DNA of 32,890 nucleotides from Spirochaetes bacterium RBG_13_51_14 (GCA_001829455.1 MIBH01000010.1:1-32890); one strand, 5' to 3'; counted from the first letter of the stretch, positions 444 to 16,338 are shown. Program-made: numbers and translations. The notes: generated by a model from the sequence alone, not told the origin.

Positions 444-1538
444 CTACAGTTCGAATCCGGGTGGCGGGGTCATGCGCTCCAGGAGGTTTTTCCCCTTGTC
501 GTAGCCGACAACCCAGACCGCGAGGTACGTGTCAACGTAGTCGAGCCACGCCTTGAAGGTCTCCGGGTCCGACGCGTGGCGGTAGAGACGCGCGGTGACC
601 ACGGCGCTTCCGGACGCGTAATGGCGGCAGTCGGCGCAGTCGGTGTCGGGCACGCAGCAGGACGCGCTCCGGTCCCAGGAGAGGTCGGTCCGGTACTGGC
701 GGAAGGATCTGCCCAGTCCGATATCGGTGGACGGGTTCATCCGGGGATAGGAACAGCCGAAAAGGTCATGGAGGCCCAACCGATGGGTGTGCGCAACGAC
801 ATTGTACGGAGAAAAGAGAACATGATCCGGATATGCGGCCAGAACGTCCATCATCGCTTTTCTCGCGAACGAAAGCGACGCGTTGTCATGGCGGAGGGTT
901 CCGGCGTAGCCCACCGGCGCGGAGAAAATATTAAACGTGACCCTGCACTCGTGCCGTGAGAGTGTCTCCATAACGTCGTATATCTCGCCGATATTATCCC
1001 GCGTGAACGTGTAAACGAAGACCGCGCGGGAGTCGCCCTCGTAGTTTTCAATCTGCCGTTCCAGCAGGTGTTTCGCGTTCCGCACACGACGGCTGGTATC
1101 GTCGTTGCCCCACACGGAGATGTGGATCTTGTATCCCACCGATTCCGGTATCATCTTGAAGCCGTTGGTGGCGATGCTGCCGAGAGGAATAACATCGTAG
1201 CAGACCCGGCACAGCTCCGGGACCAGGGACGGCTCCGCGCCCGCCAGCACCACATAGGTAATGCCCCGTTCTTTTTCCGCCTTCATGAGGGCGCGCCAAT
1301 CCACCGGATCGCTGTTATCACCGGTGAACTGCTTTTCACCCTCGTAGTAGTAGCACCCGTCGCACCGGATGTTGCAGCGGTTGGTCATGTCATACGTGGA
1401 TTCGCGGAGGAAAAAGTAACGGCGCACCTTTTCCCACCGCTCCCGGATCGCCGGATCCGCTATGATTTTTGAAAATTTCATTGTATGTTTCTGGACGATA
1501 TTTTCAACGGAAGGCTTTTCTGCGCGTTTAATATTCAT
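444..1538 (-). CDS. radical SAM protein with C-terminal Cys-rich (SPASM/twitch-like) region
   Basis: TNRCNIRCDGCYYYEG (CxxxCxxC), AGAEPS motif, C-terminal SCCVPDTDCADCRHYASGSA. Confidence 0.9.
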   Translation of the reverse strand: MNIKRAEKPSVENIVQKHTMKFSKIIADPAIRERWEKVRRYFFLRESTYDMTNRCNIRCDGCYYYEGEKQFTGDNSDPVDWRALMKAEKERGITYVVLAGAEPSLVPELCRVCYDVIPLGSIATNGFKMIPESVGYKIHISVWGNDDTSRRVRNAKHLLERQIENYEGDSRAVFVYTFTRDNIGEIYDVMETLSRHECRVTFNIFSAPVGYAGTLRHDNASLSFARKAMMDVLAAYPDHVLFSPYNVVAHTHRLGLHDLFGCSYPRMNPSTDIGLGRSFRQYRTDLSWDRSASCCVPDTDCADCRHYASGSAVVTARLYRHASDPETFKAWLDYVDTYLAVWVVGYDKGKNLLERMTPPPGFEL

Positions 1539-1589
1539 GGTTTAACCCATTCACATACGACGATATTTTTTACTCAATGTACTAAATAT

Positions 1590-1847
1590 TTATAGTTCCT
1601 TCAACTTTTCATCAATATATTCCGCGATTAATCTCACGGTCTTCAGCTTCGGGTAATCGTCTTCATCGATGGTCACGCCATACTCGTCCTGAAGAACCAG
1701 CACCACCGTTGTAAGGTCCATGCTGTCGATTCCCAGTTCGTCGATGAGATCGACCTCCGGATCAAAGGTTTCCGGGGTCACGTCCTCCAGCTTCAGCTCG
1801 TCGATAAGAATTTCCGCGACGCGAAGAATCAATTTTTTTTCCGCCAT
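1590..1847 (-). CDS. acyl carrier protein
   Basis: 85 aa, phosphopantetheine site DELGIDSMDLTTVVLVLQDEYGVTI. Confidence 0.93.
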   Translation of the reverse strand: MAEKKLILRVAEILIDELKLEDVTPETFDPEVDLIDELGIDSMDLTTVVLVLQDEYGVTIDEDDYPKLKTVRLIAEYIDEKLKEL

Positions 1848-1881
1848 GTATGTTCCTCCATTGAAAGTTGCGTGGTCAATG

Positions 1882-2319
1882 CTATGAGCGGGTGCGCGGT
1901 GCCGTCGCCATCAGACCGTTGCACGCGATCTGACCGTTACACAACACCCTGAATTTGTACACGGACGGATCGTGTTTATCCGGCGTTACCGTCACTTGCA
2001 GGGTGTCACCGGGCCGGACAAACTGCCTGAATCTCACTCTGCTTATTCCTGAAATGGCAATATCCCTGCTGTTTCTTTTCGCATGTTCCTTAAGCACATC
2101 GGAAACGATGGCGATCTGCGCGATCCCGGGAAGAATAGGCGAACCGGGGAAATGTCCGTCGAACCATAATGAACCTGTCTCAAGCCTTGTTTCCGCTGAA
2201 ATGCCGTGCGCGTCGGTTTCCGTAAGGTTTTTTAAAAAATGCCAGAGTTCATTCATTCCCGTGTATCCGCTCTCTACCCCGCCATTGAGTTGCTGATGTA
2301 TATCAAGATGCTTCCACAA
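1882..2319 (-). CDS. 3-hydroxyacyl-ACP dehydratase (FabZ/FabA-like hotdog)
   Basis: WFDGHFPGSPILPGIAQIAIVSDVL active-site motif; adjacent to ACP. The start may be a downstream ATG. Confidence 0.88.
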   Translation of the reverse strand: MWKHLDIHQQLNGGVESGYTGMNELWHFLKNLTETDAHGISAETRLETGSLWFDGHFPGSPILPGIAQIAIVSDVLKEHAKRNSRDIAISGISRVRFRQFVRPGDTLQVTVTPDKHDPSVYKFRVLCNGQIACNGLMATAPRTRS

Positions 2320-2431
2320 GCCAGGTTATACGATTATCTGTATGATAGATTTTTATATTGAACCGCGCACGGCTTGCAGACAGCGGCTTTTACTAAAATC
2401 AAAGGCCATATCGATGTCAAGAAAAAAAACA

Positions 2432-3898
2432 TCACTGATCCCGGCGCTCCTTAATTGCCAGCGCTTCCGCGAGCATTCCGCCGGCAAACCCGCATTTCAG
2501 GACATGCGTGGAAACCTTTTCAGGACGAAAGCCCGCCGCGGCCAGCGATTTCCTGATGCGGCGTTCTGTTCGCGAGTGCAGCCAGACTCCCTGCCGCATT
2601 GCGTTTCCGACCTGGGTGAAGAATCGAAAAAAGGAACGGTGCGCGGTGGTGAAATAGAAAGCCCCGCCCGGTTTGATGCATGGCGATATTTTATTGAACA
2701 GCGAGCCCAGGTCGCCCACGTACTCAAAGCATGAGAAGGAGCAGATAACGTCATACCCGCCGTCGAGTTCCATTGTCTCAATATCGCCGGTCCGGACGAT
2801 GATGTTTGACAGCTGCTCGGCCGATTCTTTTTGTTTCAGCACCGCAGCCATGTTCTCGGACAATTCGACCGCCGTGACTTCCCGGCAGTGCCGGGCTATG
2901 GCACGGGTAAAGAGGCCGGTGCCGGCGCCGATTTCCAGCACGCGGTGTTCCGGCGTCAGCAGCTTTAAAAAATGTTCATTGAACAGTTCTCGTTCTTTTC
3001 TGTAGATCCGGGAGCCGCACCGCTCCGCGTCATAGCAGCCGGTGATACTGTCGTAAAAAACCGACGCCGGGCCGGCGGCCGCCGATGAAGAGTCCGCCGG
3101 CTTCATGATCGGACGGCCGATACAGTCGGACAGGGGAATCACCGCGATGCCCCTGGCTTTCAGTCCGTCGAGGACCGCGCTCACTTCATCGAGCCATGCG
3201 CGGACGTTAAAATTTCCGCCGGGAGCGACGTCATGCATGAGAATAATATCGCCCGGTTTTACGCGCCGGAGGATTTTTTTCGACAGGTTCCTGATGCGCC
3301 GGTTGCCGGCGTCGCGGGCGCGGCAGCTGAAATTGACGCAGTACAATCCCGATTCGAGGAGCACGCGCCAGAGCCGGGGGTTCGTAATTCCGGCTGGAGG
3401 CCTGAACGCGAAGGACGCAATGCCCGATTCCAACAACACCTCCCGGGTTTTGTTTATTTCTTCGCGCAGCGTATCTGTTTTTTTTAGCATGAGCAGCGGC
3501 GAGTGGTGGTACGAATGATTGCCAACGCTGTGTCCGCGGGAGAGTATCTCCCGCATCAGACCGCGGTGCAGGGTCGCGCGCCGGCCGGTAACGAAAAAAG
3601 TCGCTGGAACGCCCTGTTGTGCCAGCAGGTCCAGCAGAGCCGGCGTGGTGTCCGGGTCAGGGCCGTCGTCGAAGGTAAGGGCAACCGCGCGCGAGTCCCT
3701 TTTGCCGCGGCTTACAATTGGAAGGTAGAAGCTCAGCCGTGGAAAAAAGGGAGCCACGAAGCAAGTGATGAGAAAAAGCGCCAGTGGGATTCCCGCACAA
3801 CGGATATCGATAAAGGCCAGAATGATGGCCGCCTGGAGCGCGACGAGTCCCGCCAGGTGCGCCGGGGCCAGGGGAACGATTGTGGGACCCCTGCTCAT
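2432..3898 (-). CDS. fusion: N-terminal TM segment, NodB-type polysaccharide deacetylase, class I SAM methyltransferase
   Basis: Deacetylase motifs TFDDGPD, HSVGNHSYHH, FRPPAG, ILMHD; then SAM-binding VLEIGAGTGLFTRAIA...VTAVELSENM in the same ORF. 4-nt overlap with the upstream gene. Confidence 0.88.
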   Translation of the reverse strand: MSRGPTIVPLAPAHLAGLVALQAAIILAFIDIRCAGIPLALFLITCFVAPFFPRLSFYLPIVSRGKRDSRAVALTFDDGPDPDTTPALLDLLAQQGVPATFFVTGRRATLHRGLMREILSRGHSVGNHSYHHSPLLMLKKTDTLREEINKTREVLLESGIASFAFRPPAGITNPRLWRVLLESGLYCVNFSCRARDAGNRRIRNLSKKILRRVKPGDIILMHDVAPGGNFNVRAWLDEVSAVLDGLKARGIAVIPLSDCIGRPIMKPADSSSAAAGPASVFYDSITGCYDAERCGSRIYRKERELFNEHFLKLLTPEHRVLEIGAGTGLFTRAIARHCREVTAVELSENMAAVLKQKESAEQLSNIIVRTGDIETMELDGGYDVICSFSCFEYVGDLGSLFNKISPCIKPGGAFYFTTAHRSFFRFFTQVGNAMRQGVWLHSRTERRIRKSLAAAGFRPEKVSTHVLKCGFAGGMLAEALAIKERRDQ

Positions 3899-5241
3899 CT
3901 GATCATGTGCTCCCAGAGCGGGCCGGTATGGCCCTGTTTGTGCAGGCGCGAGATCAGGCGGGCGGCCCTGCTTCCGCCCGTTCCGATGAACCAGTTTTCC
4001 TTTCCCTTCGCGAGATCGGCGACGATGCGGTAGATCTCCTCGCTGCTGATGCTCCGGGACTGATAGAAGACCGGTTCCAGCAGGTCGTCGGATTTGGATA
4101 TCTGGCCCTCCTTGAGCGCTATGTCGTAAATCCGCGTGTTCGGGTAGATCCTGATACCGCAGAAGAAAAAGATAACGGTTTTCTCAAGCCGCTCCGCGTT
4201 TCGCAAGGTCTCGTCGAGCGTATCCCGGTTTTCGCCGGGCCCGCCCAGGAGGATGTAATGGGCAGCGTACAGGCCCGCGTCCAGCGCGGCCGCGTGCGCG
4301 GCGAACACGTCATTGATGCTGAAGGGCTTCCGGTACGCGGCGAGCATCGGACCTGAGAGTGATTCCGTCCCGAACTCGGCGTGGGTCATGCCGGCGTCAT
4401 GCATGACGCGGTAATAGTCATCCGGAGGCTTCGTCGGCGCGAAAAAGGCGCCCCAGGGAATTGAGAGGCCCTTCTTTTTAAAGGCGCGGGCGACCTCGGC
4501 GCTGTGCTGATAGGATCCGTTAAACACTGAATCGGTTATGAAAAAATACTTAGCGCCGGCACGCTCAAGAGCGAGGGCGGTGTCAGCCACTTCATCCGCC
4601 GGGATGAGCCGAAACTCCGCGCCTTCTATAAAGGGGTAGGTGCAATAGATGCAGGTGTAGCAGCACCCGCGCTTGGTCTGCAGGTTGAGCATTCCGCCCC
4701 GGGCGATGTAATAGTGCGCGTGAGCGCCGCCGTCAAACTTCCTGTGAAATTCCGTATCTAGAGGAGCGGGCACGGCTTCCGAGGAAGCCCCGGTTATGAC
4801 CCCGGGAATGGCGGCGGCGTTTCCACCCGTTTCGATCGCGTCAAGGAGCAGGGAAAGGCGTTCTCCTTCGCCGATGATTCCGTAGTCGGCCTTCAGTATA
4901 TCCATCAATTTTTTCGGGAAGATAGTGAACCCGCTTCCGCCGAGAACAATCGCGGCAGTGGAGTGTCTGCGAATGGCTTCCACCAGATTCCGGTAGATCG
5001 GGATAAAGCTCTTCGTGTCATGGGAATCAACGTTGTCGATATTCCGCAACGAGAGGCCTATAACGTCGGGGACGAAGTCATTGATGATGCTGATGAGGGG
5101 ATCCATGCCCTTCATGATATTGATGTCCGCGATCCGTACGATGTGCCGGCTCGAAAGCGCGGCGGTGACGTAGTCGAGTCCCAGGGGATAGACATAGTAG
5201 GGGGTTCTCACGGTGTTCGCCGATATGAGCAGTACTTTCAT
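3895..5241 (-). CDS. B12-binding-domain radical SAM protein, lipid-biosynthesis type
   Basis: N-terminal MKVLLISANTVRTPYYVYPLGLDYVTAAL (Rossmann/B12-binding-like), KRGCCYTCIYCTYPF (CxxxCxxC), GGPGE motif. 4-nt overlaps on both sides. Confidence 0.9.
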   Translation of the reverse strand: MKVLLISANTVRTPYYVYPLGLDYVTAALSSRHIVRIADINIMKGMDPLISIINDFVPDVIGLSLRNIDNVDSHDTKSFIPIYRNLVEAIRRHSTAAIVLGGSGFTIFPKKLMDILKADYGIIGEGERLSLLLDAIETGGNAAAIPGVITGASSEAVPAPLDTEFHRKFDGGAHAHYYIARGGMLNLQTKRGCCYTCIYCTYPFIEGAEFRLIPADEVADTALALERAGAKYFFITDSVFNGSYQHSAEVARAFKKKGLSIPWGAFFAPTKPPDDYYRVMHDAGMTHAEFGTESLSGPMLAAYRKPFSINDVFAAHAAALDAGLYAAHYILLGGPGENRDTLDETLRNAERLEKTVIFFFCGIRIYPNTRIYDIALKEGQISKSDDLLEPVFYQSRSISSEEIYRIVADLAKGKENWFIGTGGSRAARLISRLHKQGHTGPLWEHMIR

Positions 5242-7415
5242 AACGGCCCGGCAGTAATTTCAATAGCGGTTATGAAGCTGCCGAGGCCCAGGAGAAGAAT
5301 TCCCTTTCCGCCGAGGGAGCATTCGGTGCCGCCCGCGAGGGCCTCCGGAATGGCGCCTTCTCGCGCCAGCCGCGCGGCTATCGCCGCGGCAGCTGCCGAG
5401 GCGGAGGGGAATTCTCCGATGAAAGAGCGGTAGTCGATGACCGGGCCGGTGAAGGCGGATATGTTCAGGAATTCATGAAGCTGTTTGTCACCTGCAGATC
5501 GCTCCCCGGCCGGTATGCCGGCGAAGAGTGCGGCGTACGATGCGTTAATTCTTTCGGGTCCGCCCAGGGATTGAACCAGCGAATCGACAGCGGAAGAATT
5601 GACGCGTGCATTCCCGAAGAAGAGCGGCGCCATTCCGATGCCGGCCGGCGACTCGGCAGCGCGCAGACAGAGGGCGCCGCCGCCGTCGGAATGCTCCCGG
5701 GAGGCGCGGACCGATCCGTCGAACAGGGGCGACAGGGTATCATGATGCTCGTCCGCGCCCATGAGTAAAAGGACCTCGCCGTACGCGGCTGTCAGGGAGG
5801 CGGCGTACAATGCCTGCTCGAAAGAATAATCTCCGCCGGTGGCGGTGATATTGGCGCCGGTCGCCTTGAGCCAGATGGCGGCCTGTCCGGCCGGTGCGTT
5901 GTGCACCGATCCAACGAAATCGGTGGGGCTGACGAACTGTTCGTTTGATTCAAACAGCTTTGACAGGAAATCGCCGGTTTCCGAGAGCGGACCCAGGCCG
6001 GTGCCGAAAAATATGGATGATATCGTTATCCCGGCCCCGGCGAGTTCGCGCGCTTCCATGGCCATCGAGAGTACGATGCGCGGCAGCCGTTTGAGCCTCC
6101 TCACCTCACGCGCGGGGAGCTTTTTCGAGATATCCGCCAGCGGAAGCGCACCACGGCAGCTTTTTCCTACCTGTAGATTCCGGAGCGTCGTGTCCATGTC
6201 TCCGGCGCCGGTAATGCAGGTGCTTCCCAGCACTTCAAATCGGAATGAGTGCTGCAGCGCCGGCCTTTCACGAGCTGCGCCTGGTTTCGACAGCACCAGG
6301 CAGGCGTTGTTACCGCCGAAGCCGAAGGAATTGGAAAGGACCGTGGAGATTTTTTTATGGAGCGGTTGAAGCACCGGTTTGAGTTTCAGCTCCGGGTCCG
6401 GTTCGACGCAGCCGGTGTTTGCCGGGATGAGGCCCTCCCCGATGACAATGGAGCTGATGACCGCTTCGATGGCGCCGGCCGCGGCGAGTGAATGGCCGGT
6501 CGCTCCTTTCACCGACGACAGTGGCGGGATCGCGTCCCCGAACAGCGCCCGGACAGCCCGAGCCTCGGCCAGGTCGTTATCCAGGGTGCCGGTGCCGTGG
6601 AGGTTGATATATTCAATGTCCGAGGCTGATATGCCCGCGTTTCCGATGGCGCTCTTCATGGCGGCCAGCGCCCCATCGCCCTGAGGGTGGGGGGCCGCGG
6701 GGTGGTACGCGTCGCAGGAGAGCCCCCCGCCGAGGATCTCGGCGATGGCGCCGACGGGTCTGGATTCGGCGGCCTCAAGCAGGAGCATGGCCGATCCCTC
6801 GGCCACGGTCATGCCGCGCCGGGACCGGTCCAGGGGCCGGGAGCCGGCCGGGTCGATGAGCTGAAGGGAATTAAACCCGTAATAGGTAAGCCGGCACAGG
6901 GCGTCGGCTCCGCCGGCGAGAACGCGCCGCGCCCTGCCGGACCGCAATAGCTCAAAGGCAAGTATGATCGCTGCGGTGCCGGAAGAGCAGGCCGTGGTGA
7001 CGGTGATGACGAGTCCTTCGCAACGGAAAACGTCGGCGCAGTATTCAGCCACCGAGGAGGTTGAATGATAGCGGTACGGACCGGAATCTTTCTCCCCGTT
7101 CTTCAACAGTACTTCGGTGCGAGGCATGCCCCCGGTGGTTGTGCCGATGATGATGGCGTCCGGTATGATGTCCCTGCCGGCAAGGGCTTCCCGCGCGGCG
7201 GTGATGGCGAGTGTGTGCGTCCGTGGCAGGTCGACCGCCTCCCCAAGTCCGGGGATTTCGCCTGTCGGAAAGTTATTGCCCGGCGATGCAGGGAACAGGC
7301 TGAGCGGCTTTATCCCGGAACTGTTTTTCTTCAGGGCGTCGTGATGTGCGGGAATGCCGATTCCGAGCGAGCTGGCGATTCCCATCCCGGTGATATAAAC
7401 CCCGACGCTGTTCAA
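5238..7415 (-). CDS. ketosynthase fused to a chain-length-factor-like ketosynthase domain
   Basis: N-half: TACSSG (Cys), NLHGTGT (His), KGATGHSLAAAG (His), SNSFGFGGNNACLV. C-half: KS-like fold with Cys replaced (TATGGDYSFEQALYAASL), resembling beta-ketoacyl synthase N-terminal-like (PF13723-type) proteins. Confidence 0.88.
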   Translation of the reverse strand: MNSVGVYITGMGIASSLGIGIPAHHDALKKNSSGIKPLSLFPASPGNNFPTGEIPGLGEAVDLPRTHTLAITAAREALAGRDIIPDAIIIGTTTGGMPRTEVLLKNGEKDSGPYRYHSTSSVAEYCADVFRCEGLVITVTTACSSGTAAIILAFELLRSGRARRVLAGGADALCRLTYYGFNSLQLIDPAGSRPLDRSRRGMTVAEGSAMLLLEAAESRPVGAIAEILGGGLSCDAYHPAAPHPQGDGALAAMKSAIGNAGISASDIEYINLHGTGTLDNDLAEARAVRALFGDAIPPLSSVKGATGHSLAAAGAIEAVISSIVIGEGLIPANTGCVEPDPELKLKPVLQPLHKKISTVLSNSFGFGGNNACLVLSKPGAARERPALQHSFRFEVLGSTCITGAGDMDTTLRNLQVGKSCRGALPLADISKKLPAREVRRLKRLPRIVLSMAMEARELAGAGITISSIFFGTGLGPLSETGDFLSKLFESNEQFVSPTDFVGSVHNAPAGQAAIWLKATGANITATGGDYSFEQALYAASLTAAYGEVLLLMGADEHHDTLSPLFDGSVRASREHSDGGGALCLRAAESPAGIGMAPLFFGNARVNSSAVDSLVQSLGGPERINASYAALFAGIPAGERSAGDKQLHEFLNISAFTGPVIDYRSFIGEFPSASAAAAAIAARLAREGAIPEALAGGTECSLGGKGILLLGLGSFITAIEITAGPL

Positions 7416-7420
7416 TACCG

Positions 7421-7678
7421 CTACCCCTTGCGATTCTTGATGATATGTTCTGCGAGGGTTATGAGTGTGGCAAAAACTTTTTGTCCAAGTTCCTTATTGT
7501 CGATCTTCACGCCGTATTCCCGGTCGATCATCATGGCGAGCTCCAGAATGTCGATTGAATCAATGCCGATGGTACCTCCCACGAGCCGATCGTCTTCCTT
7601 GAAGTCGTCGGGAGTGATGTCGATCAGGTCCAGCGCATCGATTATTTTTTCCTTCAGTTCAACAATCAGTTCTTCCAT
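7421..7678 (-). CDS. acyl carrier protein
   Basis: 85 aa, GTIGIDSIDILELAMMIDREYGVKIDN. Confidence 0.93.
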   Translation of the reverse strand: MEELIVELKEKIIDALDLIDITPDDFKEDDRLVGGTIGIDSIDILELAMMIDREYGVKIDNKELGQKVFATLITLAEHIIKNRKG

Positions 7679-7900
7679 TCAATTCCTCAGTAATGGCATC
7701 TAAACCGTGCAGGACCGATTGAGCGTGTCTTCAGGTCTATGAAAGTATGCGTTGTATATTTCCAGATATGAGACCCATCAGGAGACGCGGCCCGGGAGTA
7801 TCATTCCTTGATACATCAGCCTCTCCGTGCTGTTACCCTCTAGAGCGGCATACCGTACGGAAAGCTAAAAAAGCACCCAAATAATATTTAAAGGATACTT

Positions 7901-7923
7901 TTGGCATATAACCGGTATGTCAA
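7901..7923. promoter_or_regulatory. imperfect inverted repeat in divergent promoter region (candidate operator)
   Basis: TTGGCATA-TAACCGG-TATGTCAA; arms match 7/8. Lies between the divergent ACP and dehydratase operons. Confidence 0.35.
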
Positions 7924-7993
7924 GATATTTTTATTGACACCGATCCGGCGATAAACCTAAGGTATCGTACCACAACCAGCCGGTTAATTCAGC

Positions 7994-8437
7994 ATGTACG
8001 ACATCGAGAAATTGATCCCTCATCGCGGCAGAATGAAGCTCGTTGGCGACATCATCGAAATCGATGATGACCGGTGCGTTACCGCGTCGATCGTATCCAA
8101 TGAATGGCCGCTGCGCGCGGATGGATACGTCGATGCAATTATTTTGATAGAGCTGACGGCTCAGACCGCCGGCGTTCATTTCGGCTGGGATGAGATGAAG
8201 AGGGGAAAAGAGAACGCCGGCACGGTGGGATGGCTGGTGGGAATAAAGAACGCCATGTTGTACCGCGACCGGATCGCCGTGGGATCAAACATTGTGATCT
8301 CGATTGAGGACCGGAAGAGCGACGATACCTACGCCGAGATAATCGGCACGGCGCGGGTTGAGTCAGAGGTCATCGGGGAAATAATGCTTCAGGTCTTCCG
8401 GCCCGAAACGACACATCAGCAGGGAGCACCGTCATGA
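7994..8437 (+). CDS. ApeP-like 3-hydroxyacyl-ACP dehydratase
   Basis: MYDIEKLIPHRGRMKLVGDIIEIDDD...AIILIELTAQTAGVHFGW, the pattern of aryl-polyene-type dehydratases. Confidence 0.8.
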   Translation: MYDIEKLIPHRGRMKLVGDIIEIDDDRCVTASIVSNEWPLRADGYVDAIILIELTAQTAGVHFGWDEMKRGKENAGTVGWLVGIKNAMLYRDRIAVGSNIVISIEDRKSDDTYAEIIGTARVESEVIGEIMLQVFRPETTHQQGAPS

Positions 8438-9171
8438 GCGAAGAATCAAACAGCCGCGTCGCCATTGTCACCGGCGGGAGCAGGGGGATCGGACGCGCCA
8501 TAGCCCTTGAGCTGGCACGCACCGGCTACTACGTCATCATTAATTACCGTTCCAACGATCAGGCCGCAGCCGACACCCTGGACCAGATAAAAGCGCAGGG
8601 CGGCAGCGGCGAGATCATGAAGTTCGATGTGGCCGATTCCGCGGAAGCGGAGCGGGCGCTGGACGATATCATGAAGCGTTTCGCCGCGATTGACGCGCTC
8701 GTGAATAACGCCGGCATCGCCGCGGACAACCTTTTTCTCATGATGCCCGAGGCAGACTGGGACGCGGTCATCGCGACCACGCTCAAGGGTTTCTACAACA
8801 TGACCAAGCCGGTTCTCAAAAAAATGCTGCGCCAGAAAAAGGGATCGGTGGTTTCCATCGCCTCGGTGGCGGGGATGATCGGCAACAAGGGACAGGCGAA
8901 TTATTCAGCCGCCAAGGCGGGCCTCATCGGTGCGAGCCGGTCAGTGGCTTCGGAGATAGCAAAAAAAGGCATCCGGGTCAACGTGGTGGCTCCCGGCCTC
9001 ATCGAGACCGATATGATAAAGGACGCCCCGGTCGAGTTGATTAAGAACATCATTCCCATGGGCAGGATCGGCAAGCCGGAGGAGGTCGCGAAGGTGGTGC
9101 GGTTCCTCTGCTCTGACGATGCTTCGTATATCACCGGCCAGGTGATATCGGTCAACGGCGGAATGATATAA
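8434..9171 (+). CDS. fabG: 3-oxoacyl-ACP reductase (SDR)
   Basis: VTGGSRGIGRAIA, NNAGIA, YSAAKAG; ATGA overlap with the upstream gene. Confidence 0.93.
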   Translation: MSEESNSRVAIVTGGSRGIGRAIALELARTGYYVIINYRSNDQAAADTLDQIKAQGGSGEIMKFDVADSAEAERALDDIMKRFAAIDALVNNAGIAADNLFLMMPEADWDAVIATTLKGFYNMTKPVLKKMLRQKKGSVVSIASVAGMIGNKGQANYSAAKAGLIGASRSVASEIAKKGIRVNVVAPGLIETDMIKDAPVELIKNIIPMGRIGKPEEVAKVVRFLCSDDASYITGQVISVNGGMI

Positions 9172-9180
9172 GAATAGTAC

Positions 9181-9201
9181 CCCCTCCCTTGATGGGAGGG
9201 G
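9181..9201. repeat. perfect 8-bp-stem hairpin CCCCTCCC-TTGAT-GGGAGGGG
   Basis: Direct reading; located between fabG and the lolA-like gene. Confidence 0.85.
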
Positions 9202-9233
9202 AAGGGGAGGGAAAATTCCCGGAAAAAGTTAAA

Positions 9234-9848
9234 ATGAATAAAATATTTTGCAGCCCAATAAAACTAATGGCAATCATGCTTCTCTCCACATCGCTCCTGG
9301 GCTGGGGCGATTCATGGGACCAGATAAAAAAGACCGCGAACACCATAACATCGGTGCAGGCAGAATTCACGCAGAAAAAGCACCTTGAGATACTGGCCCG
9401 GCCGATGGTTTCAAAGGGGAAATTTTATTTCAGGGCTCCGCGATCATTGCGGTGGGAATACACATCGCCCCTGCGGAGCGTCCTGCTGATGCACGGCGGA
9501 ACCGTGACGCGGTATGTTAAAAATGACGAACAAATAATCAAGGATTCTTCCGCGCGGCTGCAGTCAATGCAGGTCATCATTCAGGAAATTGCCCTGTGGA
9601 TGAAGGGAACCTTTGACGCGAACCCCGCGTTCAAGCCCTCCCTCATGCCGGGAAGGAAAATAGTGCTCACCCCGCGGGATAAAGCCATGGCTGATATCAT
9701 CCAGCGCATCGATCTGCAGCTCTCCGCCACGCCCGGCGTGATACAATCGGTCGTCATCTATGAAAGCCGGACCTCTTATACCGTGCTCGATTTCACGCGG
9801 GTGACGCTGAACGCCGCGGTTCCCGATTCCCTTTTCAAGGAATTGTAA
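9234..9848 (+). CDS. LolA-like outer-membrane lipoprotein carrier protein
   Basis: MNKIFCSPIKLMAIMLLSTSLLGWGDSWDQIKKTANTITSVQAEFTQKKHLEILARPMVSKGKFYFRAPRSLRWEY; signal peptide. ORF track start moved from 9189 to 9234. Confidence 0.82.
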   Translation: MNKIFCSPIKLMAIMLLSTSLLGWGDSWDQIKKTANTITSVQAEFTQKKHLEILARPMVSKGKFYFRAPRSLRWEYTSPLRSVLLMHGGTVTRYVKNDEQIIKDSSARLQSMQVIIQEIALWMKGTFDANPAFKPSLMPGRKIVLTPRDKAMADIIQRIDLQLSATPGVIQSVVIYESRTSYTVLDFTRVTLNAAVPDSLFKEL

Positions 9849-10504
9849 TGAGGCCGGCCATTGCCATTGTTGCGTTGCCCGTAATCATCGCCTGCGCCGG
9901 CCTTCCGCGGATAACTCCAGCAGCCGAAAAGGAAAAAGCGGATATCGCGCGAAGATGCGGATGCCCGTACCTGAACGGGCGATACCGCCTGGTTCATACG
10001 ATACAAGGCACGCTTCCGGGGGGGATGGCGGCTGCGATGATTGGCATAACGGTTGCTGCCGCGGATACCGGCCGGCTCCGCTGTACCCTCATGTCCATTG
10101 AGGGCCTTGTGCTCCTGGACGCCGATTATGACGGGGCGCTGGTCATTAACCGCGGAATCGGACCCCTTGCCTCGCCTGACCTGGTCATGGGCATGATCCG
10201 GGACATCAAGCTCATGCTGTTCAGGCCGGCGGGGGCAGTTGCCGAAATCGGGGCGCTTCATGACGGAAGCGGCATCTGCCGGTATCGAACTGACGGCGGC
10301 ATGTTGGATGTGGTGCTTATGAACGGCGGCGACACCGAGGTGTTGTCATATGACTCGTCCTCGCGAGTGTCGCGCACGGTGCGGTTCTCCGATTTCCGCA
10401 GCGACGGCATTCCGCGCAGGATTGAACTTTCAGCTACCGGTCTTTTCAGCTATTCCCTTCGTCTTGATCTGATCGAGGCGGAGCAGGTGCGGCCATTGAA
10501 TTAG
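9848..10504 (+). CDS. DUF3261-like lipoprotein
   Basis: Signal peptide with lipobox-like IIACAG; position directly after the LolA-like gene matches APE-type clusters. Confidence 0.6.
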   Translation: MRPAIAIVALPVIIACAGLPRITPAAEKEKADIARRCGCPYLNGRYRLVHTIQGTLPGGMAAAMIGITVAAADTGRLRCTLMSIEGLVLLDADYDGALVINRGIGPLASPDLVMGMIRDIKLMLFRPAGAVAEIGALHDGSGICRYRTDGGMLDVVLMNGGDTEVLSYDSSSRVSRTVRFSDFRSDGIPRRIELSATGLFSYSLRLDLIEAEQVRPLN

Positions 10505-10894: not shown

Positions 10895-11149
10895 TTGGGC
10901 GAGATTCGAGTAAAACTGTACGGCGCTCTGTGCCTGATTCCAGAAGTAAAGAAAGATAAAGACCGTATAAAAAACGGAGTGCCGATGATTATCAATGAAC
11001 CGACAAACGTCAGGGATGCTTTAAAACTGCTGGATATACCGATAAAAAACGTTAACATCGTCTGTATAGGCAAAGATCAGGTGATGTTAGATAAAGAACT
11101 GAAAGATGGCGACATCCTGCATGTCTTTCCGATAATGGGCGGAGGATAA
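10895..11149 (+). CDS. MoaD/ThiS-family ubiquitin-like sulfur carrier
   Basis: 84 aa; ...LKDGDILHVFPIMGGG with terminal Gly tail; TTG start preceded by AAAGGGGAAA. Confidence 0.85.
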   Translation: MGEIRVKLYGALCLIPEVKKDKDRIKNGVPMIINEPTNVRDALKLLDIPIKNVNIVCIGKDQVMLDKELKDGDILHVFPIMGGG

Positions 11150-11371
11150 CGAACACGCGAGATTAATCCCGGCCATAAATATAAAACAAAATAAGAGATT
11201 ATTTGTCTCGGCTGAATAGCCTTACAGACACTTTTTAATCTCAGATTTATTATTATCAAGATGTTGGGAAAGTCTTATATTACAGTGATATACCCATATC
11301 CATAGAGAAATATTCTAACTTGATTTAAGGCTCTTTTATTTTCTTTTCAAAGAGAGCATAGAGGAGGTAAT

Positions 11372-13246
11372 ATGAACTGTGAAGCAGGTTATGCGAAAAG
11401 GTTGCTCGAAGTCGATCTTTCACAGGGAAAAATACAAAAAACGCCGCTGGATGAAACGTTGTTAAAGACCTTTCTGGGCGGTGGAGGTCTGGCGGCAAAA
11501 CTGTTTCTGGACCGTTTCTCTCCAGATTTGGATCCACTGTCCAGGGAAAATCCATTGATCGTGATGACAGGTCCGCTGGTAGGCACCCTGCTTCCGGGAT
11601 CCTCCCGGTTTGCAGTTTGCGCACGTTCCCCACTGACCGGATTTTGGGGAATCGGGACGTGCGGAGGGAATTTTGGACCTGAGCTGAAGTTTGCCGGCTA
11701 TGACGGCATCCTGATCGAAGGGATGGCAGAAAAGCCCGTGTACCTGTTGATAGATGACGATACAGTGGAGCTTAGGAATGCCGCGGATCTGTGGGGTAAG
11801 GATTTATATGAAGTTACGGACCTTTTAAAGCAAAGGCACGGTGAAAAGAAAAAACCGAAGATTTTGGCAATCGGTCCGGGGGGCGAGAACAAGGTCCTGT
11901 ACGCGGCGATTGGAAACGACTATGGTCATTATATCGGCAGGACGGGGATGGGCGCGGTTATGGGCTCGAAAAATCTGAAGGCCATTGTGGTTTCGGGAAC
12001 CGGGAAAGTATTGCCGGCCCTTGCCGAAGAATACAAAGAGGTCAGGGCGAGGGTCATAGAGAAATGTAATGAATCCGCGGTCGCCCAATCTTTGAAGAGC
12101 ATGGGCTCTGCGGTAAATGTTGATCTTGGCATGATGACAGGGGATGTACCGATCCGGAATTGGAGGCAGGGAGAATTTGAAGGATCGGGCAAGATCGGCG
12201 GCCCTACCATGACAGCGGATTATTTGACTAAAGGACACGCATGCTATGCGTGCCCGATTGCATGCAAGCGGGTGGTCAAGGTCGACAATGGACCCTATCA
12301 GACCAACGAGGGACCGGGGCCGGAATATGAGACAATTGGTTCGTTCGGTTCCTATATAGAAAATGATAACCTTGAAGGGATCATCAAGGCCAATGAACTT
12401 TGCAACCGATATGGGATTGATACCATTTCAACTGGGGCAACCATTGCATTTGTTATGGAGTGCTTTGAGAAGGGTATCCTGACAACGTCTGATACGGACG
12501 GATTGGAGGTGAAATTTGGAGATATTGACGTAGCGCTGAAACTCGTGGAAAAGATCGCCTTTCGTAAGGGGATCGGCGATCTCCTTGCTGAAGGTTCAGT
12601 AAAAGCAGCACAAAAGATTGGAAAAGGCGCAGAAGCGTTTACCGTGGCGGTCAAAGGACTGGAATTGCCTGCCCATGATCCGCGAGGGTTTCATGGAATG
12701 GGCCTTGAATACGCTGTCGGGTATCGGGGTGCTTGTCATCTCCAGCACATGACGATGTATATTGAACAGGGGATGAACATATATGAAGGAGTTGGTTTAG
12801 AGAGCGATTATGTTGGACAAAGCAGTGACGGCAAGGCAAAAATGGTCTTAATATCCCAGAATATGGGTGTTCCCTTAAGTTCGGCCTGCCTCTGTGTATA
12901 TGTCTATGCCTGTATAGCACCTCAGGATCTTGTGGATATGATCCATGCAGTGACCGGGTGGGATTTCAGACTGAAAGATCTTCTAAACATCGGCGCTAGG
13001 ATATGGCTGCTGATGCGCGGTCTGACCAACCTTATGGGCGCAAGATCACGTGATGACAGGCTGCCGAACAATGTTATGATGCCTCTTGATAACGGCGGGG
13101 CAGCTGGATCAAAACTGGATCTCGATAAAATGCTGAAAGAGTACTATGAAATGCGCGGTATTGATTCTAATGGCATTCCCAAAAAAGAGGTGTTGGAAAA
13201 CGCCGGTCTGCATGATCTGGCAGTCAGACTTCATGGCGGTACGTGA
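11372..13246 (+). CDS. aldehyde:ferredoxin oxidoreductase (tungsten/molybdopterin family)
   Basis: GGGGLAAKLF, GPLVGTLLPGSSRFAVCARSPLTG, GRTGMGAVMGSKNLKAIVV, ACYACPIACKR cluster ligands; GAGGAGG RBS. Confidence 0.95.
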   Translation: MNCEAGYAKRLLEVDLSQGKIQKTPLDETLLKTFLGGGGLAAKLFLDRFSPDLDPLSRENPLIVMTGPLVGTLLPGSSRFAVCARSPLTGFWGIGTCGGNFGPELKFAGYDGILIEGMAEKPVYLLIDDDTVELRNAADLWGKDLYEVTDLLKQRHGEKKKPKILAIGPGGENKVLYAAIGNDYGHYIGRTGMGAVMGSKNLKAIVVSGTGKVLPALAEEYKEVRARVIEKCNESAVAQSLKSMGSAVNVDLGMMTGDVPIRNWRQGEFEGSGKIGGPTMTADYLTKGHACYACPIACKRVVKVDNGPYQTNEGPGPEYETIGSFGSYIENDNLEGIIKANELCNRYGIDTISTGATIAFVMECFEKGILTTSDTDGLEVKFGDIDVALKLVEKIAFRKGIGDLLAEGSVKAAQKIGKGAEAFTVAVKGLELPAHDPRGFHGMGLEYAVGYRGACHLQHMTMYIEQGMNIYEGVGLESDYVGQSSDGKAKMVLISQNMGVPLSSACLCVYVYACIAPQDLVDMIHAVTGWDFRLKDLLNIGARIWLLMRGLTNLMGARSRDDRLPNNVMMPLDNGGAAGSKLDLDKMLKEYYEMRGIDSNGIPKKEVLENAGLHDLAVRLHGGT

Positions 13247-13324
13247 TAATCTCGTTTATTGTTGATGGCGGCTGGCCTGTTGATCAGGTCGGCATTATTA
13301 AATATTAAAAAGGGAGGATGGAGT

Positions 13325-13891
13325 ATGGCTTATACGTATGGAACACCGGAATGGGAAGAAGCTTTTAAAAAAATGACAAAAGAGAGGATTGAAGCCAAGT
13401 CAAAGCCCTTCATTTATTTTTCACCTGAATGGGTTGGACTATGGGAAAAGCTGCTTCAAGGTGATGCGAAATACAAGGAAGTGGCCAAGGACTGGGAAGG
13501 CGTGGTCGTCTTGCACGTGCTAAAAAACCCCGATTGTGGCGTCGATCAGGATATGTTTATACACATGGATCTCTGGCACGGAGACTGTCGGGCCATACGT
13601 TACGTTCCGTCTGAAGTCGGGAAAAATGCCGCTTATGTGGTTACCGGCACCATTGAGCGTTGGGTATCAGTTGGTAAAAAAGAGCTTGATCCGACCAAGG
13701 GGATGATGCAGGGAAAGCTCAAACTGAAGGGAGATCTTCCGACTATCGTGCGCAACGTCAAGGCCGTCTTACGCCTGGTTGAAACAAGTGCGGAAGTTGG
13801 AGGCAAATTTCCTACTGAGTTGAGCCCGGAAGAGGTAGAAATATTTAGGAAAATGATTAAAGATATGACCACCAAGTTCAGTATTACATGA
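13325..13891 (+). CDS. SCP2 sterol-transfer-like domain protein
   Basis: MAYTYGTPEWEEAFKKMTKERIEAK...; C-terminal pattern (TKGMMQGKLKLKGDLPTIVRNVKAVLRLVE) as in SCP2-like proteins. Start moved to the ATG after AGGGAGGATGGAGT. Confidence 0.7.
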   Translation: MAYTYGTPEWEEAFKKMTKERIEAKSKPFIYFSPEWVGLWEKLLQGDAKYKEVAKDWEGVVVLHVLKNPDCGVDQDMFIHMDLWHGDCRAIRYVPSEVGKNAAYVVTGTIERWVSVGKKELDPTKGMMQGKLKLKGDLPTIVRNVKAVLRLVETSAEVGGKFPTELSPEEVEIFRKMIKDMTTKFSIT

Positions 13892-14083
13892 AATCAAGCG
13901 TAGATACTATCAGATACAGATATAAATCCGTTCCTTCTGAATTTAGAGTGGACCTCCAAGATGGAGTGATTGTGTGCCCGCTTGGCCGGGTGGCCGCTTT
14001 GACAGGCTTGTTAAGGGCTCATTTGCGCAACCACACAAGGCTTATGGCTGCAAAGGATTTAATAAACTAATGGGAGGTATGCT

Positions 14084-15247
14084 ATGGCGTACGACAGGGA
14101 TCTTTCCTTTATCTATCGCAATCCGACGAAACTGGTGTTCGGAGAAAATTCAATAAATGAAGTGGAACAGGAGGTAGTCAGTCTTAAATGCAGCAAGGCA
14201 TTTGTAGTGACCGACAAGGGTGTGGTTGATGCCGGATTGACCGGCCGGGTGGAAAAGGTGTTGGGCAAAAAACATGTCGGAACGTATGACAAATGCACCC
14301 AGGACTCCGGTCTTCATCTTATAAATGAAGCGGCCGAAATCGCAAAGAGCAAAGGCGCCGATATTCTGGTGAGCGTTGGCGGCGGAAGTGCAATAGATAC
14401 TGCGAAAGGAATGGCCATTGTTTTGAAAGAAGGTATAAAAATTCAGGACCATACGGGTTATCAGAGCCTGTCGCGCCCGCAAACTCCGCACATCGTCATT
14501 CCCACCACCGCAGGCACGGGAAGTGAAGTCACTTACTTCGCGGTAGTCAAAGATTGGGAACAGAACAGAAAAATTGAAATTGGCGAAGATAATATTATTC
14601 CAAATGTGGGCATCCTCGATCCGACCATGACGGTGGGATTGCCCCCCCAGCTTACCGCCACAACCGGCATGGACGCTTTCTGTCATGCTCTCGAATCCAT
14701 CCATGCAAACCAGTCCTCACCCGTGGCCGACGCCATGGCCATTCATGCCATACAATTGATCGTGGAATATCTCCCACGATGCGTTGAGAATGGCAAGGAC
14801 CTTTTTGCCCGGGGCCAACAGTTATTGGCATCCACAATGGGCGGGATCGCCTTCTGCAATGGGCAGATAGCCCTGGTGCATGCCATGGCGCATACGGTGG
14901 GGGGCCTGTTCAAAGTGCCGCACGGATTGGCCAATAGTATTCTCCTTCCGCATGTCGTTCGATACAACATGGATGCCTGTGGCGATAGATATGCCGTGGT
15001 TGCCCGCGCCATGGGTCTGGATATGAAGGGGATAAATGATGAAAATGCCGGTGAGGCGGTGGCCAATGCCATAAGCGCATTAACCAGGAAAATGGGAGTG
15101 CCCCAGAAACTGCGGGATGCTGGTGTTCCTGAAAGCGGTCTGGTCAAGGCGTCTGAAGTCACCATGACTATGGGAGGAGTGGTATTTAATCCCAAGCCAA
15201 TCAGCGACGCAAATGAGGTCCTTGGCGTGTATAAAAACGCGTGGTAA
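14084..15247 (+). CDS. iron-containing (group III) alcohol dehydrogenase
   Basis: SVGGGSAIDTAKGMA, PTTAGTGSEVT, GMDAFCHALES, VHAMAHTVGGLFKVPHGLANSILLPHV. Confidence 0.95.
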   Translation: MAYDRDLSFIYRNPTKLVFGENSINEVEQEVVSLKCSKAFVVTDKGVVDAGLTGRVEKVLGKKHVGTYDKCTQDSGLHLINEAAEIAKSKGADILVSVGGGSAIDTAKGMAIVLKEGIKIQDHTGYQSLSRPQTPHIVIPTTAGTGSEVTYFAVVKDWEQNRKIEIGEDNIIPNVGILDPTMTVGLPPQLTATTGMDAFCHALESIHANQSSPVADAMAIHAIQLIVEYLPRCVENGKDLFARGQQLLASTMGGIAFCNGQIALVHAMAHTVGGLFKVPHGLANSILLPHVVRYNMDACGDRYAVVARAMGLDMKGINDENAGEAVANAISALTRKMGVPQKLRDAGVPESGLVKASEVTMTMGGVVFNPKPISDANEVLGVYKNAW

Positions 15248-15291
15248 ATTTGAATCGGAAATTGTGAAATCGATCGTGTGAGGGAGGGAAT

Positions 15292-15711
15292 ATGGCTAAG
15301 ATCAATTTTGCTAAAGGAGCTAAGAAAGCTGGGCTGGCCGTGATGATGGCGGACATGATCAAGGCGAACCTGAAACAAAAGCCCGAAAGAGAGAAAGATT
15401 TAAATGCCTTAAACGGAAATATTTACTTACATGCAGAGGACGCTGAAGTCGATATGACCATGGTTTTCAAGAATGGAAGTCTGACCGTCTACAGAGGCAA
15501 AGTCGGGGATCCAATGATCAGCATTGCAGCGGACTCTGTCACTTTACTTGACTTGGCCAATATAAGCATCAAATTCGGCTTGCCTTTTTATTTTGATGCG
15601 AGGGGTCTGGCGATTCTTTGGAAACTTCTGACGCGCCAACTCAAATTAAAAGGCCTGATTACGCACCCGATAGCGCTTACCCGTTTCACAAAACTCATGT
15701 CTGTCAGATAG
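15292..15711 (+). CDS. small SCP2-like protein
   Basis: LHAEDAEVDMTMVFKNGSLTVYRGKVGDPMISIAADSVTLLDLANI...; TGAGGGAGGG RBS. Confidence 0.55.
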   Translation: MAKINFAKGAKKAGLAVMMADMIKANLKQKPEREKDLNALNGNIYLHAEDAEVDMTMVFKNGSLTVYRGKVGDPMISIAADSVTLLDLANISIKFGLPFYFDARGLAILWKLLTRQLKLKGLITHPIALTRFTKLMSVR

Positions 15712-15783
15712 TATCAGAAGATCAGTGATACATGGAGCGACCGGCTGAGAAAACAGTTATTTTGTTAATTGGAGGATCGAATC

Positions 15784-16338
15784 ATGCATTTTCAAAAATG
15801 TATCAGCTTCATTGTATTGGTTTTTCTTTTGTCCTGTAGTTCTACTTTCAAGGTCGAGACTGATCCTTTGGATAACACAAAGATCATCACCTATGAAACA
15901 AAGCTGGAGACAGTCCGCGGATTATTGGGTAATCATTATATCCAGCTTGTCAAAAGCTCTAAAAATGATAAAAATGCAGCAGTAAAAATGAATATGAAAT
16001 TCTACGGCTATTATAAAGAAAAGGCGAGCAAGGATTATATAGAGTTGAACATAGATGATGTGATGCACAAACTGCCTGTTGAGCTTACTGAAAGTTACAC
16101 CTCGGCCAGCGGTTGCGAGAAACTTACCGAGGAAGCAATAACGACATATGATGAAAAGCGGCTCTGGTATACCATTAAGCTGACAGTGCCAATCTCGGCC
16201 GAATTTGTTGAAAAATTAAAAGGTGCGAAGAAGTTGTTGATCAGGGTCCACTATTTTAACAATGTCGGAGAAGATGCGTCCACCTTTGGCTTTTCTCAAG
16301 GCCAGATTGAAAATGTGGGTGAACTTCTGCGCATGTAA
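15784..16338 (+). CDS. predicted lipoprotein, unknown function
   Basis: MHFQKCISFIVLVFLLSCSS lipobox; GGAGG 5' of the ATG at 15784 (track start 15769 is a TTG before the RBS). Confidence 0.75.
   Translation: MHFQKCISFIVLVFLLSCSSTFKVETDPLDNTKIITYETKLETVRGLLGNHYIQLVKSSKNDKNAAVKMNMKFYGYYKEKASKDYIELNIDDVMHKLPVELTESYTSASGCEKLTEEAITTYDEKRLWYTIKLTVPISAEFVEKLKGAKKLLIRVHYFNNVGEDASTFGFSQGQIENVGELLRM

Follow-up and report, generated by a model that had tools for sequence, protein, structure and literature searches.

Pairs of an aldehyde ferredoxin oxidoreductase (AOR) and an alcohol dehydrogenase (ADH) are known from Pyrococcus furiosus and Clostridium autoethanogenum, where AOR and ferredoxin connect acid and aldehyde, and the dehydrogenase connects aldehyde and alcohol. 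No carrier proteins take part in these pairs, whose substrates are short or soluble. UbiJ and the SCP2 domains of peroxisomal SCP2 and MFE-2 are lipid-holding accessories to oxidoreductase or beta-oxidation enzymes. Here, we describe a gene block in a 32,890-nucleotide stretch of DNA from Spirochaetes bacterium RBG_13_51_14 (GCA_001829455.1 MIBH01000010.1:1-32890; the whole stretch is called the window), which encodes an AOR, an iron-type alcohol dehydrogenase (Fe-ADH) and two SCP2-fold proteins, SCP2a and SCP2b. The block is a variant of the known AOR-ADH pair: the two reactions are the same, but the block also encodes two SCP2 proteins, and its neighbouring genes suggest oxidation. Its SCP2 proteins share their fold with UbiJ and the SCP2/MFE-2 domains, and differ from them in being paired with AOR and Fe-ADH.

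A full-text search, with most subscription papers outside its coverage, returned no paper on AOR with SCP2, SCP-2 or sterol carrier protein. Likewise, a survey from 2026, covering 4,064 neighbourhoods of tungsten oxidoreductases (WORs), has none of the words SCP, sterol, lipid or alcohol dehydrogenase in its main text (PMC13328260). The enzymes themselves are known, and the module with its carriers appears to be undescribed.

We consider it somewhat better than an even chance that AOR, SCP2a, Fe-ADH and SCP2b constitute one conserved metabolic module, which oxidises long-chain alcohols via the aldehyde to the acid for beta-oxidation with hand-over by the SCP2 proteins. In this pathway, Fe-ADH would use NAD(P)+ to turn a long-chain alcohol, fatty or isoprenoid, into the aldehyde, and AOR, as a putative tungsten-pterin 4Fe-4S enzyme, would oxidise the aldehyde to the free acid while reducing ferredoxin. 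The alcohol and the aldehyde, both poorly soluble and reactive, would be held by the two soluble SCP2 proteins and carried from one enzyme to the other. The free acid would then be activated to acyl-CoA and enter beta-oxidation, with reduced ferredoxin as the gain.

Recurrence of the module in bacteria

The preliminary description of this DNA had grouped AOR, SCP2 and Fe-ADH genes, and the neighbourhoods strongly bear out their co-occurrence elsewhere, in Geothermincolia, in Desulfobacterota types and in archaea. A genome scan with SCP2a found 11 loci; five of them reach at least 56% identity (L001, L002, L003, L004 and L006), and every one of these five carries all four genes. The module is rare in the window's phylum; 393 sampled genomes gave five matches, and only G000, G050 and G183 carry it. 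Four module genomes are of the Desulfobacterota type, namely the window genome, G050, G183 and G393, the last of which (the genome of L001) has two copies. A search of plasmids for SCP2a gave no match.

The module also occurs in the class to which G395 and Candidatus Geohydrothermomicrobium of Geothermincolia (Actinomycetota) belong. Full-length SCP2a is present in 22 of the 31 genomes of this class, and Fe-ADH adjoins SCP2a in 21 of these 22. AOR lies in the same stretch in 18 of the 21; the other three stretches are broken by contig ends. The gene order is AOR-SCP2a-FeADH-SCP2b in the window, L001, L079, L080 and L081. Actinomycetota have SCP2a-FeADH-SCP2b-AOR, and some of their loci continue with a ThiS-like gene. 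Thus, the four genes stay together despite a permuted order, with AOR first in the Desulfobacterota types and last in Actinomycetota. Such repeated linkage of one set of four genes in different phyla goes beyond chance.

It should also be noted that, after the module copy at L081:1904-11773 (G393), the same strand encodes a 173-aa protein, two additional Fe-ADHs, another AOR (33% identical) and a ferredoxin-like protein.

Related loci in archaea

In a scan of 247 genomes of Methanolliviera's phylum, matches were found in 31. SCP2, Fe-ADH and AOR lie side by side at 11 of the 12 short-type SCP2a loci checked (L153-L164), and in G470, G461 and G451 the SCP2-FeADH-AOR genes form tight operons. 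G470 is Geoglobus ahangari, a cultured archaeon that oxidises stearate and palmitate; words starting with aldehyde or sterol, and the term 'alcohol dehydrogenase', are absent from the main text of the paper reporting this (PMC4600277). At the Methanolliviera locus L083, AOR and Fe-ADH adjoin a divergently oriented SCP2 gene. A relative of this locus, L171:2-4836 (G444), carries an NAD-type aldehyde dehydrogenase, a long-chain-type acyl-CoA ligase, Fe-ADH and a divergent SCP2 gene; no AOR is seen on this short contig, and one may lie elsewhere. A search of ten of the archaeal genomes, run without a positive control, gave no SCP2b.

This distribution bears on a simpler proposal, in which the enzymes serve general aldehyde detoxification and the SCP2 proteins of a loose neighbourhood have separate lipid jobs. 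Several Class I WORs are thought to detoxify aldehydes (PMC13328260), and SCP2 copies also occur elsewhere in module-bearing genomes. Against this, four- or three-gene blocks are conserved in three lineages, permuted yet intact, and we regard detoxification as very improbable.

Catalytic residues and phylogeny of the AOR

The 4Fe-4S ligands C291, C294, C298 and C508 of the module AOR align with C288, C291, C295 and C494 of P. furiosus AOR (1aor), and all four cysteines are kept in 20 of 20 module AORs. In the same alignment, the active-site residues E320 and H456 of the window AOR correspond to Glu313 and His448. The position of P. furiosus Thr243 is Ser246 in the window AOR and Thr in most relatives. 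An extra cysteine, Cys506, two residues before the cluster cysteine, is present in 18 of the 20 module AORs and in none of the non-module AORs in the set.

His435 replaces Tyr427 of P. furiosus AOR in all 20 module AORs. Given that the same change is reported in AOR Cf and ASOR (PMC12096430), it is compatible with AOR/WOR membership. We had considered His435 as a mark specific to the module and rejected it, since other AORs in the set, AOR Cf and ASOR have His too. Class I WORs with WorX resemble the module in that the AOR has one large subunit, that catalytic and cluster residues are intact and that a ThiS-like WorX lies nearby; the module differs in having His for Tyr427 and in its SCP2 and alcohol dehydrogenase partners, which the main text of the survey does not mention (PMC13328260).

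In the AOR trees, the five Desulfobacterota-type module AORs form one starred clade, and the Actinomycetota module AORs form a second with L121 inside it. The branch uniting the two has moderate support (82/87). The archaeal SCP2-associated AORs are a clade of their own within the same larger His-type group. Module AORs are nearly but not strictly an exclusive clade; L121/L124 (G415) is nested among them with neither SCP2a nor Fe-ADH in its vicinity.

Of 16 His-type AORs, 7 have an SCP2-like neighbour, as against 1 of 15 Tyr-type AORs, a modest contrast (one-sided exact p about 0.02) in a count that leaves out AORs found through SCP2a and uses a membrane-SCP2 model built from three of the seven. 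With 7 of 16, the notion of an SCP2 neighbour at every His-type AOR was rejected. Several other AORs have a membrane-anchored SCP2-like protein within 3.5 kb, and at L122:7685-11719 and L123:6216-10071 sister AORs adjoin an HpnE-like flavoprotein of the amine oxidase family and an SCP2-like protein that carries a membrane segment at its N-terminus.

SCP2 proteins and Fe-ADH

Both SCP2-like proteins named in the preliminary description hold up by profile and by predicted structure. The SCP2a profile finds the Thermus SCP2 structures 1wfr and 2cx7 at E 3e-24, and its predicted model (pLDDT 94) matches 2cx7 in Foldseek with a target TM of 0.89. Thermus SCP2 is thus a near relative by sequence and fold, from which SCP2a differs in an added N-terminal stretch. 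Against Pfam SCP2 (PF02036; cut-off 21.3 bits), SCP2a scores 44.7 bits and SCP2b a marginal 23.6. The AlphaFold model of SCP2b (pLDDT 86.6) retrieves UbiJ-SCP2 (6h6p) and other SCP2 structures, at only about 15% identity to UbiJ. Given the marginal score of SCP2b, the folds of both proteins were predicted, and these models confirm the SCP2 assignment for the two.

At L063:6419-10287, a full-length SCP2a copy is directly followed, on the same strand, by genes for a molybdopterin oxidoreductase and a ferredoxin-like protein; hence SCP2a may partner other metal oxidoreductases too.

The window Fe-ADH has the metal ligands D197, H201, H266 and H280 and a GGGSAID nucleotide motif at 99, and is 71-77% identical to the copies of its closest relatives. 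In an alignment, bacterial and archaeal Fe-ADHs alike retain the metal ligands. A regular expression had suggested that Archaeoglobi Fe-ADHs lack them; this was rejected, as the alignment places all four.

Neighbouring genes, direction and substrate

A long-chain acyl-CoA synthetase above cut-off and a CoA-transferase family protein lie downstream in L001, a long-chain acyl-CoA ligase above cut-off is present in L170, and thiolases with ChsH2-type OB proteins stand beside at least seven Actinomycetota modules. Given these ligases and thiolases, the aldehyde dehydrogenase replacing AOR at L171 and the archaeal carrier that burns fatty acids, oxidation with a yield of reduced ferredoxin is favoured over the ferredoxin-driven reductive route that had been suggested earlier.

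In such a reductive route, AOR would reduce fatty acids presented by the SCP2 proteins with reduced ferredoxin, and Fe-ADH would reduce the aldehydes further, to fatty alcohols that go into wax or ether lipids. The combination of AOR and ADH is indeed able to turn acids into alcohols (PMC12096430). The predicted SCP2 fold would suit fatty-acid binding, and the window genome is that of a bacterium with fatty-acid lipids. The archaea that carry the three-gene form do not make their membranes from fatty acids, and the NAD-type enzyme at AOR's place works essentially oxidatively. With acyl-CoA ligases and thiolases as neighbours, and with the three genes carried by Geoglobus ahangari, which burns fatty acids (PMC4600277), we judge acid reduction to be unlikely.

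As to the substrate, a hydrophobic compound handed to AOR and Fe-ADH by the SCP2 proteins, as originally put forward, remains plausible from the sequences; there is no reason to prefer sterols to other lipids. In place of straight-chain fatty alcohols, the substrate might be a branched lipid such as an isoprenoid or steroid (phytol-like alcohols, or side-chain aldehydes from a thiolase-like retro-aldolase). This would fit the thiolase and ChsH2-type OB pairs beside Actinomycetota modules and the HpnE-like flavoprotein and membrane-anchored SCP2-like protein next to sister AORs. UbiJ, the best fold match of SCP2b, also serves a prenyl-lipid pathway. Thiolase/OB pairs are widespread, and the nearby acyl-CoA ligases are named as long-chain fatty-acid types, two of them above cut-offs; a branched substrate thus seems to us a minority prospect.

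Several points weigh against our preferred interpretation, the oxidation of carrier-held long-chain alcohols. The AOR and Fe-ADH reactions are reversible, so that their direction rests on neighbours and on the physiology of the carriers. In the window, neither an acyl-CoA ligase nor a thiolase adjoins the module, and thiolase/OB pairs may belong to other pathways. Module-bearing genomes often have extra SCP2a copies that lack Fe-ADH, and such non-module copies (e.g. L063) show that SCP2a is not bound to AOR. Finally, ASOR is a WOR with added sulfonate activity (PMC12096430), and its sharing of His for Tyr427 means that the reaction might differ from simple aldehyde oxidation.

Gene set and surroundings in the window

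The preliminary gene identities are upheld by Pfam matches for five of the six open reading frames (ORFs), all on one strand (Table 1). The gaps between them are, in order, 222, 78, 192, 44 and 72 bp, and each of the five ATG starts is preceded by a ribosome-binding-site-like sequence. For SCP2a, this applies to the ATG at 13325; a TTG start listed at 13259 is probably too early. The AOR ORF scores 262 bits for AFOR_N and 419 bits for AFOR_C (cut-offs 29.8 and 27), and the Fe-ADH ORF scores 149 and 184 bits.

Table 1. Genes of the block and their positions in the window.
Feature	Position	Strand	Basis and remarks
ThiS/MoaD-like protein ('WorX' type named in PMC13328260)	10895-11149	+	TTG start; C-terminal GGG; Pfam ThiS
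AOR-family (WOR) large subunit	11372-13246	+	Pfam AFOR_N/AFOR_C; alignment to 1aor
SCP2a, SCP2-fold protein with conserved N-terminal extension	13325-13891	+	Pfam SCP2; profile and fold matches
Group III iron-type alcohol dehydrogenase (Fe-ADH)	14084-15247	+	Pfam; metal-ligand and nucleotide-motif check
SCP2b, second and shorter SCP2-fold protein, fold nearest UbiJ	15292-15711	+	Pfam SCP2; AlphaFold model; Foldseek
Lipoprotein-like protein, LLSC lipobox-like motif	15784-16338	+	Probably outside the module

The first ORF of the block has a ThiS domain (26.4 bits; cut-off 22.5) and a C-terminal Gly-Gly. A ThiS-like gene lies 3' of AOR in four Actinomycetota loci (L003, L004, L006 and L068) and was not detected in L001 or L081, the two closest relatives. 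Thus, a MoaD-like carrier, once taken as a dedicated part, was rejected as a fixed component; the ThiS/MoaD-like (WorX-type) gene is an optional AOR companion. The lipoprotein-like ORF, which had been placed at the end of the module, has no match among Pfam or NCBIfam profiles and no relative at any module locus, and was rejected as a member. At several Actinomycetota module loci (as at L086:9895-11955), a 271-aa 4Fe-4S protein and a cysteine-rich CCG-domain Fe-S protein are encoded 5' of SCP2a; both are possible electron-transfer partners.

Upstream, at a distance of 390 bp, FabG-like, LolA-like, acyl carrier and ketosynthase genes seem to make up a separate cluster. Positions 444-10504 encode a double ketosynthase, an acyl carrier protein, two dehydratase-like proteins, an FlxB-like FabG and a LolA2-like carrier, together with a radical SAM/B12 protein and a deacetylase-methyltransferase fusion. 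This is reminiscent of a lipid or polyene-like biosynthesis cluster, recalling aryl polyene or flexirubin clusters. Downstream of the lipoprotein-like ORF lies a chemotaxis receptor gene on the opposite strand.

Significance

According to the survey, only 5 of 92 WOR clades have a defined physiological role (PMC13328260). In alkane-oxidising archaea, the alkyl-to-acyl step is still unsolved (PMC10811742, PMC7175092), and a related AOR/FeADH/SCP2 locus is present in one such archaeon. As a speculative extension, to which we give little credence, the SCP2 proteins might mark a lipid-dedicated tungsten-AOR branch for carrier-held long-chain aldehydes in both domains; on that view, L083 would be a candidate locus for the conversion of alkyl-CoM to long-chain acyl-CoA in Methanoliparia-type archaea. 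Expression tests are possible at once in Geoglobus ahangari, which is cultured and grows on long-chain fatty acids. For a WOR group that adjoins lipid carriers and an alcohol dehydrogenase in bacteria and archaea, a concrete and testable role can thus be offered, which is probably to oxidise, with the help of the carriers, fatty or isoprenoid alcohols and aldehydes in anaerobic organisms.

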